DNA of 36,065 nucleotides from Bacteroidales bacterium (GTDB lineage: Bacteria; Bacteroidota; Bacteroidia; Bacteroidales; UBA932), in NCBI GenBank assembly GCA_017620335.1, contig JAFZQO010000051.1:1-36065 (forward strand), in the 5' to 3' direction. The translations under genes were made by a program, and so were the position numbers. This document shows, one piece after another, positions 10,338-18,691 of this stretch. How positions within the stretch are numbered: the first letter of the stretch is position 1; every line of letters starts with the position of its first letter. A model generated the notes under the pieces. The model worked only from the letters and a program-made list of their open reading frames with translations. It was not told where the DNA came from and made no database searches.

Positions 10338-11759
10338 ATGAACGAGTCAGATTATCAGCACAAACTCGAAGAATTGTTCGTCCGCTTCCCTTCCGTGCAG
10401 AAGACCGGATTCGGTGACGCGTACAAGCCAGGACTGGCCCACATGGAGGAGTTCGGGGCACTGCTGGGGCATCCAGACAGGGCGTACCGTACCATTCATG
10501 TAGCGGGGACCAACGGCAAGGGCTCCGTGGCCAACATGCTGGCATCCGCCCTTGCGGCGACGGGCCTGAGAGTGGGCCTTTATACCTCGCCTCATATCCT
10601 TGATTTCCGGGAGCGGATGCGCGTCATCGACGCCGGCTCGGACGGGCCTGCAAGGATGATAGGCCGGGAAGAGGTATGGGACTTCATCTGCCGCTGGGAG
10701 GAGACCTTCGACAAGCTGGACCTGTCGTTCTTCGAGATCACGACAGGTATGGCATTCCGCTGGTTCGCCGACGAGAAGGTCGACCTGGCTGTCATAGAAG
10801 TCGGTCTGGGCGGCCGTCTGGACAGCACAAACATCATCACGCCAGAGGTTTGCGTCGTGACGAGCATCGGGCTCGACCACTGCGCGATGCTCGGCGACAC
10901 GCGGGCGGAAATCGCCGGCGAGAAGGCCGGGATCTTCAAGCCCGGGGTGCCCGCCGTCGTCGGCACGCGCGACGGGGAGACGGCGCCCGTCTTCGAGGCC
11001 CGCGCCGCTACCATTGGATGTCCTCTTACCTTCGCTTCCGGAGGGCAAGGGGGTTGCTCCGCTTTTTCTTCAGCGTTCGCTAAATGCTCCGCAACCCCCT
11101 TGCCCTCCTCCAGCTTAGTGATGGATTTACAGGGCGAGTGGCAGGAGGAGAATCTGCGGACGGTGCTAACGGTGCTGGCGGTGATGGGCGTCCAGGCGAC
11201 GGAGGAGGTCCTCCGCGCCATCGCGCACACCGCCCGCCGCATGGACTTCCACGGCCGATGGGAGCTCCTCCACCGCGATCCGGACATGCTCTGCGACATC
11301 GGCCACAACCCTCCGGCACTCAAGCGCAATTTCGCCCAGCTGGAACAATACCTCGCCGAAGGACGCTACGGCAGCCTCATAATCGTTTACGGCGTCATGG
11401 CCGACAAGGACCTCGACGGCATCATTCCCCTGATGCCCCGGGAGGCCACTTATATCGCCGTCGCTCCCGACACTCCCCGCGCCATGAAGGCCGAAGCCCT
11501 CTTCGGGAGGCTCTCGGAAGCCTTCCCCGGGAAGGTCCTCTTCGGCGGCAGCGTCGCTTCGGGCCTCGAACTGGCTTCGGGATTGGCTGCGGACCTCCGG
11601 CTGCATTTGCCCGGAACGGGTCTGAACGGCGCTTCAGCGCGCTCTGACAGATCGCAGCCGGAGGTCCGACAGCCAATCCCGGGCAACAGCAAACCCCTGA
11701 TCTACATCGGTGGCAGTACTTTTGTAGTATCCGAAGCAGTAACCGCCTTAAGAGTATAA
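10338..11759 (+). CDS. folC: Bifunctional folylpolyglutamate / dihydrofolate synthase
   Basis: The enzyme adds glutamate to (dihydro)folates using ATP in folate biosynthesis. The 473-residue product shows the Mur-ligase-type P-loop HVAGTNGKGSVANML (about residues 54-68), TSPHILDFRERM, the VEVGLGGRLDSTN-type motif (IEVGLGGRLDSTN), SIGLDHCAMLG and, late, MLCDIGHNPPA. The ending IYIGGSTFVVSEA is typical of Bacteroidetes FolC. Two stretches look inserted: about residues 235-258 (FASGGQGGCSAF...LPSSS) and about 415-450 (LASGLAADLRL...PIPGNSK). Both correspond exactly to long DNA inverted repeats (11040-11108 and 11578-11681) and keep the frame open, so the enzyme is probably intact but carries two extra loops. 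It is followed by the 108-bp palindrome at 11763. Confidence 0.95.
   Translation: MNESDYQHKLEELFVRFPSVQKTGFGDAYKPGLAHMEEFGALLGHPDRAYRTIHVAGTNGKGSVANMLASALAATGLRVGLYTSPHILDFRERMRVIDAGSDGPARMIGREEVWDFICRWEETFDKLDLSFFEITTGMAFRWFADEKVDLAVIEVGLGGRLDSTNIITPEVCVVTSIGLDHCAMLGDTRAEIAGEKAGIFKPGVPAVVGTRDGETAPVFEARAATIGCPLTFASGGQGGCSAFSSAFAKCSATPLPSSSLVMDLQGEWQEENLRTVLTVLAVMGVQATEEVLRAIAHTARRMDFHGRWELLHRDPDMLCDIGHNPPALKRNFAQLEQYLAEGRYGSLIIVYGVMADKDLDGIIPLMPREATYIAVAPDTPRAMKAEALFGRLSEAFPGKVLFGGSVASGLELASGLAADLRLHLPGTGLNGASARSDRSQPEVRQPIPGNSKPLIYIGGSTFVVSEAVTALRV
11040..11108. repeat. In-frame palindrome 1 within folC
   Basis: Two perfect 18-bp arms (11040-11057 and 11091-11108, left arm GGAGGGCAAGGGGGTTGC) flank a 33-nt loop that itself contains AGCG-TT-CGCT. 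The element reads through in the folC frame without a stop. The encoded Gly/Ser/Cys-rich stretch is poor in conserved residues and lies between the central domain and the conserved EWQEENLRTVL segment, so it looks like an insertion in a surface loop. Confidence 0.85.
11578..11681. repeat. In-frame palindrome 2 within folC
   Basis: A 27-bp left arm (11578-11604) pairs with 11654-11681; the only imperfection is one extra A at 11669. The 49-nt loop contains a smaller GCGC-TTCA-GCGC hairpin. The repeat keeps the folC frame open and encodes about 33 residues rich in Gly, Ser, Arg and Pro between GGSVASGLELA and the conserved IYIGGSTFVV end. Confidence 0.88.
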
Positions 11760-11762
11760 GGC

Positions 11763-11870
11763 CGTGTTTTGTAAATATCTTATTATTAGCTGGTTATAAA
11801 TGTCTCCCCCTTCGATTTCAGCAGGGGACATGTTAACAATAAGCTGATTATGAGACAGTTACAAAACACG
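11763..11870. repeat. 108-bp near-complete palindrome (MITE-like) between folC and the macroglobulin gene
   Basis: The ends are perfect 12-bp inverted repeats (CGTGTTTTGTAA at 11763-11774 with TTACAAAACACG at 11859-11870). Inside, an ATGTCTCCCC / AGGGGACAT pair (11800-11809 with 11822-11830) and partly matching AGCT-containing stretches continue the symmetry. It starts 3 bp after the folC stop and ends 17 bp before the next start. No target-site duplication is obvious. It may be a miniature inverted-repeat element or a large RNA hairpin, and it must hold or replace any promoter of the downstream gene. Confidence 0.7.
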
Positions 11871-11887
11871 ACATAATAGTACACGAT

Positions 11888-17197: not shown

Positions 17198-17218
17198 CGC
17201 TTTCGCCTACCCTGAGAT

Positions 17219-17337
17219 GCGGTAGGTGGAATAATAAGGTAAGGACCTACCGCAGTTATTTGCATCATTGGCCAATTTGCGCGCTAGGTGGTCTCCCTTA
17301 TATTCCACCTACCGCACTGATTGTCCCCACCTACCGC
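17219..17337. repeat. REP-like doublet, flank A of the RAYT gene (119 bp)
   Basis: It contains TGCGGTAGGT / ACCTACCGCA (17218-17227 with 17245-17254), GCGCTAGGTGG / CCACCTACCGC (17281-17291 with 17305-17315, one mismatch) and a further CCACCTACCGC (17327-17337). Each stem base carries GTAG, the tetranucleotide bound by the E. coli REP transposase. The 119-bp unit is repeated in the same orientation at 18560-18678. Confidence 0.85.
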
Positions 17338-18250: not shown

Positions 18251-18537
18251 ATAGCTTGACTGGGTGACACTTCTGAATGTGTTTTCTGATTCGAAAATAA
18301 AATCTGCAGAACGAATCTCAATCGAACATATAAATATATACTTCAGAAATATATGTTTTTATATATCTGATATATATTTATACCTGTTGTTACGGGTAAC
18401 CCCCATTCACTAATTCCCTTTGCGGTGAACAATCATTCTCCTTTGGTCTCCAACTTTCCCATCATAGCCTTGATAGCTTAGGTGCGAAGGAACAGAGCAT
18501 TCCCTCTGACTCTTCTCTCCTCCGGGACAGTTCTAAT
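18251..18537. other. AT-rich non-coding segment upstream of the RAYT gene
   Basis: No convincing gene is present. The part 18330-18390 is very A/T-rich, with repeated TATATAT runs, in contrast to the surrounding high-GC DNA. The rest shows no feature I recognise. It separates the transposase start from REP flank B. Confidence 0.6.
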
Positions 18538-18546
18538 GCGGTAGGT
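18538..18546 (+). repeat. Extra single REP-like motif
   Basis: GCGGTAGGT stands alone 13 bp before flank B and has no inverted partner close by. It is a direct copy of the stem motif of the doublets. Confidence 0.6.
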
Positions 18547-18559
18547 CAACGACATAACT

Positions 18560-18678
18560 GCGGTAGGTGGAATATTAAAATGGATACATACCGCACTTTT
18601 GCGCATTGATTGGCTATTTGCGCGGTAGGTCAGGGACATCTATTTCCACCTACCGCAGTTGCCACTTCAACCTACCGC
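18560..18678. repeat. REP-like doublet, flank B of the RAYT gene (119 bp)
   Basis: It starts with GCGGTAGGTGG (18560-18570), whose partner is degenerate (ACATACCGCA ending at 18595). It continues with GCGGTAGGT / ACCTACCGC (18622-18630 with 18648-18656) and ends with CCTACCGC (18671-18678). It aligns end to end with flank A: same order, same orientation, same length, shared spacer words such as TTTGCGCG and TTCCACCTACCGCA. Confidence 0.85.
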
Positions 18679-18691
18679 ATCGATTCAGGAG

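Follow-up and report, generated by a model that had tools for sequence, protein, structure and literature searches.

The window analysed here is a stretch of 36,065 nucleotides that makes up one entire contig (G000:C54) of its genome, hereafter the source genome (G000). It contains a folC gene for folylpolyglutamate/dihydrofolate synthase, identified from its open reading frame, its match to NCBIfam TIGR01499 (E = 3.9e-88) and its solved relatives. The gene and its palindromes are laid out as follows.

10338–11759, plus strand: folC, 473 amino acids and a stop codon.
11040–11108, plus strand: palindrome 1 of folC.
11578–11604, plus strand: left arm of the C-terminal palindrome, 27 nt; its outer part, GGATTGGCTGC, is also found in RUG470 (L082).
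11592–11681, plus strand: inserted 90 nt, codons 419–448, located by DNA comparison with L082 (RUG470) and L081 (RGIG6008); its exact breakpoint is ambiguous within a few nucleotides.
11605–11653, minus strand: apical core, 49 nt, reading on the minus strand as a variable second hairpin, the GACCCGTTCCGGG hairpin, AAAT and the arm.
11610–11620, minus strand: core hairpin CCCG-TTC-CGGG, within the best conserved part of the element.
11629–11640, minus strand: second core hairpin GCGC-TTCA-GCGC, which varies from copy to copy.
11654–11681, plus strand: right arm, 28 nt, with a single bulged base at 11669.

The two arms are completely complementary apart from the bulged base, which is a T on the minus strand and is seen in all eight aligned copies of the element. 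The RNA fold of positions 11570–11690 has an energy of −82.1 kcal/mol, compared to −46.9 ± 3.6 kcal/mol for shuffled sequences (z = −9.9; 0 of 200 shuffles as good). The original prediction of a palindrome at 11578–11681, with 27-bp arms and one bulge, in frame near the C-terminus of folC, is thus confirmed by complementarity, reading frame and fold energy, and the GCGC-TTCA-GCGC hairpin that it placed within the loop is present.

Palindrome 1 lies at a loop where other species carry different palindromes, and its own loop matches that of RGIG6008 (L081). It has a short motif in common with the C-terminal element, a TTC-loop hairpin followed by AAATGC, and the pattern CGTTCN{2,6}AAATGC has 8 matches in the source genome, compared to 2 for the reversed pattern. 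The covariance model R1, built from eight copies of the C-terminal element, does not recover palindrome 1. Elsewhere in the window, a 55-nt inverted repeat (11755–11878, 73% complementary) begins at the folC stop codon and precedes the next gene; long inverted repeats at 17218–17316 and 18536–18680 have TGCGGTAGGTGGAA and ACCTACCGC blocks in common and may belong to another hairpin family; and the start of a 16S rRNA gene is found on the minus strand at the contig end (1–114).

The relatives retrieved with the window FolC are rumen and gut metagenome genomes, and we infer that they and the source genome belong to the genus Candidatus Cryptobacteroides. RUG13108 (G097; locus L083) carries the same 30-codon insertion as the window, in frame in both. 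RUG470 (G186; L082) has no insert, and its protein reads GGSVASGLNLASGLAAG-SSRPLIYIGGST at this place; the folC of RGIG6008 (G133; L081) is short at the same place, also with no insert. The possibility, raised alongside the original prediction, that the segment is a normal part of FolC in relatives therefore does not hold. The segment had been said to add about 33 residues; the addition stands, but against the RUG470 empty site it amounts to 90 nt, or 30 codons (84–90 nt in RUG13108). The outer left arm of the window is old host sequence, since L082 has GGATTGGCTGC at its empty site, and the outer part of the right arm repeats it in inverted orientation. The inserted DNA thus consists of the core and the right arm. 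No target site duplication was seen by eye at the folC site, the one site inspected.

The consequences for the protein were assessed with an AlphaFold2 model based on 56 sequences from the genus (mean pLDDT 88.7; 345 of 473 residues at 90 or above). The blocks across residues 421–450 have pLDDT values of 64, 50 and 62, compared to 96 and 95 for the adjoining blocks, and the modelled insert sits between a helix ending at residue 422 and a strand starting at residue 453. Low values are otherwise observed in the region of palindrome 1 (residues 231–260; 68, 54 and 62), at residues 11–30 (76 and 64) and at residues 181–190 (77). Solved FolC chains align by sequence up to residue 420 at most. A normal fold is thus predicted for FolC, the insert forming a floppy, disordered loop, which agrees with the earlier suggestion that the segment might fall in a surface loop.

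Palindromes are recurrent in folC. With an inverted-repeat score of at least 13, they were detected in 13 of 75 FolC genes, compared to 5 of 375 codon-shuffled genes; this count excludes the partial genes L154 and L155, the latter of which holds a palindrome as well. Ten of the 13 fall in three regions, namely the insert site of the window, residues ∼96–108 and residues ∼235–260. The other three are of another kind, L138 and L143 being in conserved sequence and L148 in the open frame beyond the FolC end. The folC palindromes of RUG12703 (L103) and UBA3289 (L108) have identical 24-nt arms, and their 38-nt spacers are exact reverse complements of each other. Judged by eye, one arm of L103 also seems to consist of host sequence when compared with L114, and the type D cores of L103, L108 and L116 resemble a shortened form of the folC-type core. 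Near residues 238–260, the folC genes of L121 and L128 contain palindromes whose arms measure 25–26 nt and whose loops measure 25 nt (GATAAMAACAGGCTTGACGCCGAAA), and a loop that looks similar by eye occurs between other arms at L128 4068–4152. The L128 folC (JAGCYZ010000032.1) also encodes the peptide VILSEAKDL twice, once beside the palindrome, which we take to be a frequent translation of a dispersed repeat.

The folC segment represents a single copy of a hairpin element dispersed in genomes of Candidatus Cryptobacteroides. Similarity of the whole segment at the DNA level was found in 5 of 400 genus genomes, including the source genome, and in two of these it was limited to 24-nt matches; the search also revealed three tandem copies within one stretch of RUG13108. 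In the source genome, a plain DNA search with the palindrome returned the palindrome itself and then matches at E values of 0.43 or worse, although one weak match (C6:66861) falls in a real copy according to R1. At E ≤ 0.001, and with up to 9 candidates scored per genome, R1 identified at least 33 rows in at least 13 of 400 genus genomes, corresponding to at least 32 places, as the window hairpin accounts for two rows, one per strand. At least five places are in the source genome: folC, a gene for a SpoU-family methyltransferase (C41), mutS (C52), and the C6 and C20 copies, which lie between open frames. Thus, the genomic copies that had been proposed for a search do exist in the source genome, but a plain DNA search detects them weakly or not at all because the arms differ between copies. 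According to protein family matches, in-frame copies in relatives are located in mutS, in ligA near the C-terminus, in rsmH and in an endonuclease/exonuclease/phosphatase gene; another copy, located where a secA frame begins, may precede the true start. Related cores therefore occur in unrelated proteins, and in both orientations.

A stricter search was carried out with the core pattern GACCCTANNCCGGGNAAANGC, allowing one mismatch, which misses the GTTC form of RUG13108, RUG470 and the window folC. It matched 8 of 250 genus genomes, with 38 copies in G006, 15 each in G104 and G265, 5 in G108, 3 in G182, 2 in the source genome and 1 each in two others; the reversed pattern gave a single match in the same 250 genomes. 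In an order-wide set, 4 of 247 genomes matched, comprising the source genome and three with a single one-mismatch match, and the reversed pattern matched in 2. Of 30 copies placed relative to crudely called open frames (16 in G006, 5 in G108, 9 in G265), 18 lie within 20 nt of a stop codon. Strong inverted repeats in general (score ≥17) number 11 in 436 kb of the source genome and 11 in 400 kb of RUG13108, compared to none in 100 kb of G016, from the same genus. Eight of the 11 in the source genome and 3 of the 11 in RUG13108 are inside open frames of at least 150 residues, some of the former frames being probably spurious. Two other families gave 1 repeat in 240 kb and 1 in 60 kb, a weak control given their much lower G+C content. 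No match to Rfam was found at the elements in 13 sources, and no viral contig contained an exact match to three core patterns.

In an ordinary inverted-repeat element, the arms are expected to be the best conserved part. Paired arms (score ≥11) surround 46 of the 51 distinct cores with sufficient flank, compared to 44 of 1020 random flank pairs, and range from ∼11 to 43 nt among copies. Core identities of 0.94–0.99 are high by construction, since these letters are the search pattern; the comparison with the arm, in which gaps were allowed, was therefore restricted to the remainder of the core. Identity of the core outside the pattern is 0.71 in G006 (shuffled 0.54), 0.58 in G265 (0.46), 0.85 in G104 (0.60) and 0.94 in G108 (0.59), compared to 0.60 (0.55), 0.57 (0.52), 0.76 (0.59) and 0.66 (0.53), respectively, for the arm. 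The arms are hardly above shuffled values in two genomes and are less shared than the core in all four, although just barely in G265; they are thus not the conserved terminal inverted repeats of a MITE. Ungapped arm identities are 0.38 (G006), 0.35 (G265), 0.69 (G104) and 0.59 (G108), such that the arms in G104 are fairly alike among copies. The inner 8 nt of the arms are more alike between copies than the outer part.

Despite these differences, pairing is maintained. In the alignment of eight copies, 14 of 37 pairs have changed on both sides, the covariation score is 0.232 compared to 0.080 ± 0.017 for shuffled alignments (0 of 500 reach it), and slid partners score 0.085 or less. Helix 1 of this alignment contains no one-sided changes that preserve a pair. 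Orthologous elements in the SpoU gene behave similarly: between RUG470 and the source genome, both bases have changed in 4 arm pairs, 3 of which are paired in each genome, and a single base in none; between RUG470 and RGIG6008 the counts are 5 (4 paired in each) and 3, and between the source genome and RGIG6008, 7 (6 paired in each) and 2. The comparison of folC itself, which had been suggested as a check for compensatory changes in the arms, gave a divided answer, as between the window and RUG13108 one pair differs on both sides and is compensated, but the other two of the three changed pairs are one-sided. In the arms of 54 copies, there are 1449 Watson–Crick positions, 13 G.T, 24 A.C and 42 other mismatches. 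Selection for an RNA hairpin should spare G.U pairs on the transcribed strand, and a strong excess is seen on neither strand. The predominance of two-sided changes, without enrichment of G.T, points to a DNA-level process, rather than selection of an RNA hairpin, as what keeps the arms paired. The arms had originally been attributed to either recent insertion or selection for the hairpin at the DNA or RNA level. Insertion is borne out by the empty sites in two relatives and the recurrence of the core, and maintained pairing by the changes above; selection at the RNA level is disfavoured.

Comparison of orthologous sites revealed inversion and replacement of the core. In the linker of mutS, the core is sense in RUG470 and the source genome and antisense in RUG13108 and RGIG6008, with four different arm pairs, and six further relatives have no element in mutS. 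The mutS bodies of these four genomes are 0.94–0.99 identical at codon positions 1 and 2 and 0.65–0.75 at position 3. The SpoU gene contains a folC-type core in the source genome, RGIG6008 and RUG470, while RUG13108 has a different core, type E, at the same place within an outer stem that is similar by eye. Type E is present in the SpoU gene of G226 too, and neither type was detected in G339, G234, G241 or G218; this survey covered 14 loci, 5 of which were unrecognised by the motif used. The type E core CCCCTCTTANNNTGCCGAGGGNGGCA (up to 2 mismatches) occurs in 96 of 200 genus genomes, with up to 30 copies per genome and 11 in the source genome, and the reversed pattern has 1 match among the matches listed. 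In RUG13108, type E hairpins are in frame in dnaX, hemW, uvrA and truB, with different arms and a common core. Their positions are:

L188 10244–10353: type E hairpin.
L188 19543–19667: type E hairpin.
L186 18410–18513: type E hairpin.
L198 14256–14376: type E hairpin.

Our best explanation, to which we give about an even chance, is that the element was inserted in frame into folC, that its arms were made and are renewed by template switching during replication, and that host selection retains the copies that are tolerated. The core hairpin would fold back, such that the nascent strand takes a reverse copy of the adjoining host DNA, leaving one arm as host sequence and the other as its inverted copy; we suggest that the core hairpin itself starts this copying. 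Later switching between arms would keep them complementary, carry mutations from one arm to the other and occasionally flip the spacer. Selection on the host gene would then retain insertions that are in frame and in loops or linkers. In folC, the insertion point follows the last long helix and precedes the last strand and the C-terminal helix, where a floppy loop may be tolerated. An arm of host DNA, concerted changes of the arms and flipped spacers all fit template switching. Both concerted changes and spacer inversion are observed, together with some one-sided changes. Template switching homogenises inverted-repeat arms and inverts spacers in coding genes of yeast (PMC8604942), and it has also been put forward as a process that generates and preserves RNA stems (PMC8794818). 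Several observations fit this explanation less well. No insertion has been observed directly, and an arm of host origin is evident at one site and suggested at a second, the SpoU and mutS outgroups being too diverged to reveal it. The flips described in yeast span 2–5 bp, compared to 38 here (PMC8604942). Only one of three changed arm pairs is compensated between the window and RUG13108 folC, and the G104 arms are fairly alike between copies.

An extension of the template-switching explanation is that the heritable part of the element is mainly its tip. The core would prime fold-back copying, each insertion would build its arms from landing-site DNA, and later switching would keep the pairing, flip the tip and sometimes replace the core by one of another type while the outer arms stay similar. 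The idea of core exchange comes from the two core types at the SpoU site, and we consider the whole extension speculative and rather improbable. If true, a self-priming fold, and not a set of terminal repeats, would be what defines this mobile element.

The age of the folC copy is a separate question. It may have arrived laterally, or by separate insertion at the same site, rather than through an ancestor in common with RUG13108, which we rate just short of an even chance and which is compatible with the other explanations discussed here. In a table of 14 core rows, the GACCCGTTCCGGG form is found in the window folC and otherwise only in RUG13108 (4 rows) and RUG470 (3 rows), while the other four rows of the source genome and both rows of RGIG6008 have the GACCCTA or GACCCTG form. 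Trees of folC, mutS and the SpoU gene place RUG470 beside RUG13108 with support of 0.995–1.0 (the placement of RGIG6008 varies among trees), and RUG470, the sister, is without the insert. Furthermore, the insert is more similar between the two carriers (0.885) than is the rest of folC (0.757). At codon positions 1–3, identity is 0.88, 0.88 and 0.91 for the insert, compared to 0.85, 0.89 and 0.53 for the rest, and the high value at third positions is contrary to neutral decay since a common insertion, a point that also weighs against our best explanation. However, the flanking codons have diverged like the rest of the gene, so a lateral tract would need to be very short, and gain in a common ancestor followed by loss is about equally simple. 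Three histories suit these data, namely an independent arrival at this site, lateral transfer of a short tract, or strong constraint on the DNA.

The element could alternatively be a conventional mobile palindrome of the REP, MITE or RPE type, moved by a transposase in trans, with arms that belong to the element and have drifted while staying paired; we regard this as possible but on the unlikely side. Its patchy, high-copy distribution, the tandem copies in RUG13108 and the greater similarity of the inner 8 nt of the arms would suit such an origin, as would the proximity of 18 of 30 copies in G006, G108 and G265 to stop codons, which is reminiscent of REPs (PMC3733652). Y1 transposases (PF01797) were matched in 13 of 18 genomes, 11 above the cut-off, with the most (6 each) in G006 and G265. 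Over 17 hand-picked, related genomes, their number rises with the strict core count (Spearman 0.63, p = 0.007), which favours a transposase over our best explanation. Additionally, two Y1 proteins of ∼300 residues have the REP-associated tyrosine transposase model as their best match, below its cut-off. In contrast, none of 20 Y1 loci (G265, G006, the source genome, G104, RUG13108 and G108; 0.1–2.4 kb on each side) contains the core, and R1 returned one weak row on them (E = 0.063). At several of these loci, other hairpins flank the Y1 gene on either side. G182 contains three strict cores with no Y1 match, whereas the best Y1 matches come from G241 and G226, in which the strict core is absent. 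A GTAG or CGTC tag is not consistently present, being found no more than 6 nt from an arm end in 5 (GTAG) and 3 (CGTC) copies out of 30, with ∼2 of 30 expected by estimate. The arms, moreover, are the least shared part of the element. A RAYT-like agent that moves the core is thus possible, but unproven. As a separate observation, RAYT-like Y1 genes at L338, L345, L347 and L349 (G265, G006 and the source genome) are flanked by matching hairpin pairs, similar to a REPtron or TIRtron and unrelated to the folC core.

It is improbable that the element is instead a structured RNA or a 3′-end RNA signal under selection, with the copies in genes as by-products. The strong covariation, the branched fold and the many copies just 3′ of stop codons would be expected of such a signal, but the lack of G.U enrichment in the arms, the helix 1 changes, the presence of the core in both orientations and the Rfam result all argue against it. 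Covariation in long stems thus need not imply a selected RNA. Least of all do we favour a benefit of the insert to FolC as a functional peptide loop, which is very improbable: the frame is intact in both the window and L083, but the three codon positions of the insert vary alike, unlike those of the rest of the gene, the insert is predicted to be disordered, and related cores are found in unrelated proteins in both orientations.

The closest known kinds of element are Rickettsia palindromic elements (RPEs) and intragenic REPs. RPEs are palindromes of ∼100–150 bp from several families, found in frame in genes for conserved proteins and also between genes, and different families (RPE-4, -6 and -7) can occupy one locus in orthologues (PMC2229807, PMC10969869, PMC3767692). 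The Candidatus Cryptobacteroides element is likewise in frame in folC, the SpoU gene, mutS, ligA and rsmH, and also intergenic. The likeness is one of description. For RPEs, 12-bp terminal inverted repeats are listed; here, the arms vary among copies with a common loop core, spacers flip, and the host belongs to an unrelated genus. REPs are situated mainly behind genes, with some in repair genes such as uvrA, and CGTC repeats are known in Bacteroidetes among other phyla (PMC3733652). Our element resembles them in its positions behind genes and inside repair genes. It differs in that REP stems of 5–13 or 8–9 bp carry a tag at one end (PMC3733652), compared to arms of ∼11–43 nt, a larger core and an inconsistent tag, and in that the hallmark of REPs, a RAYT-type Y1 gene flanked by the repeat, was found at none of the 20 loci. 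Template-switch repeats also have arms that change together and spacers that invert, and their stems are described as arising and persisting without selection; those cases involve existing short repeats with inverted spacers of 2–5 bp, whereas the present element is dispersed and its spacer measures tens of nucleotides (PMC8604942, PMC8794818). Mitochondrial hairpin elements similarly invade compact genomes as repeated hairpins, and long palindromes are found in mitochondrial coding genes (PMC2800124, PMC6649704). These are organelle genomes, and in Nematomorpha both arms encode conserved protein, in contrast to the extra sequence inserted here.

In-frame palindromic elements are best known from Rickettsia, and REPs within genes from several other bacteria. 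In the literature covered, mostly titles and abstract openings, with preprints and most subscription papers outside its scope, such elements were not described for this genus. Candidatus Cryptobacteroides is a large gut and rumen genus with several core types in housekeeping genes, and because its many related species display empty sites, flips and turnover of arms, the origin and upkeep of the hairpins can be tested by comparison. Another repeated hairpin family, with arms like GACCAGGAGCAAAAACGGC, is found in RUG13108 at L195 (1955–2062, 5367–5490 and further), with more matches in the same 20 kb.
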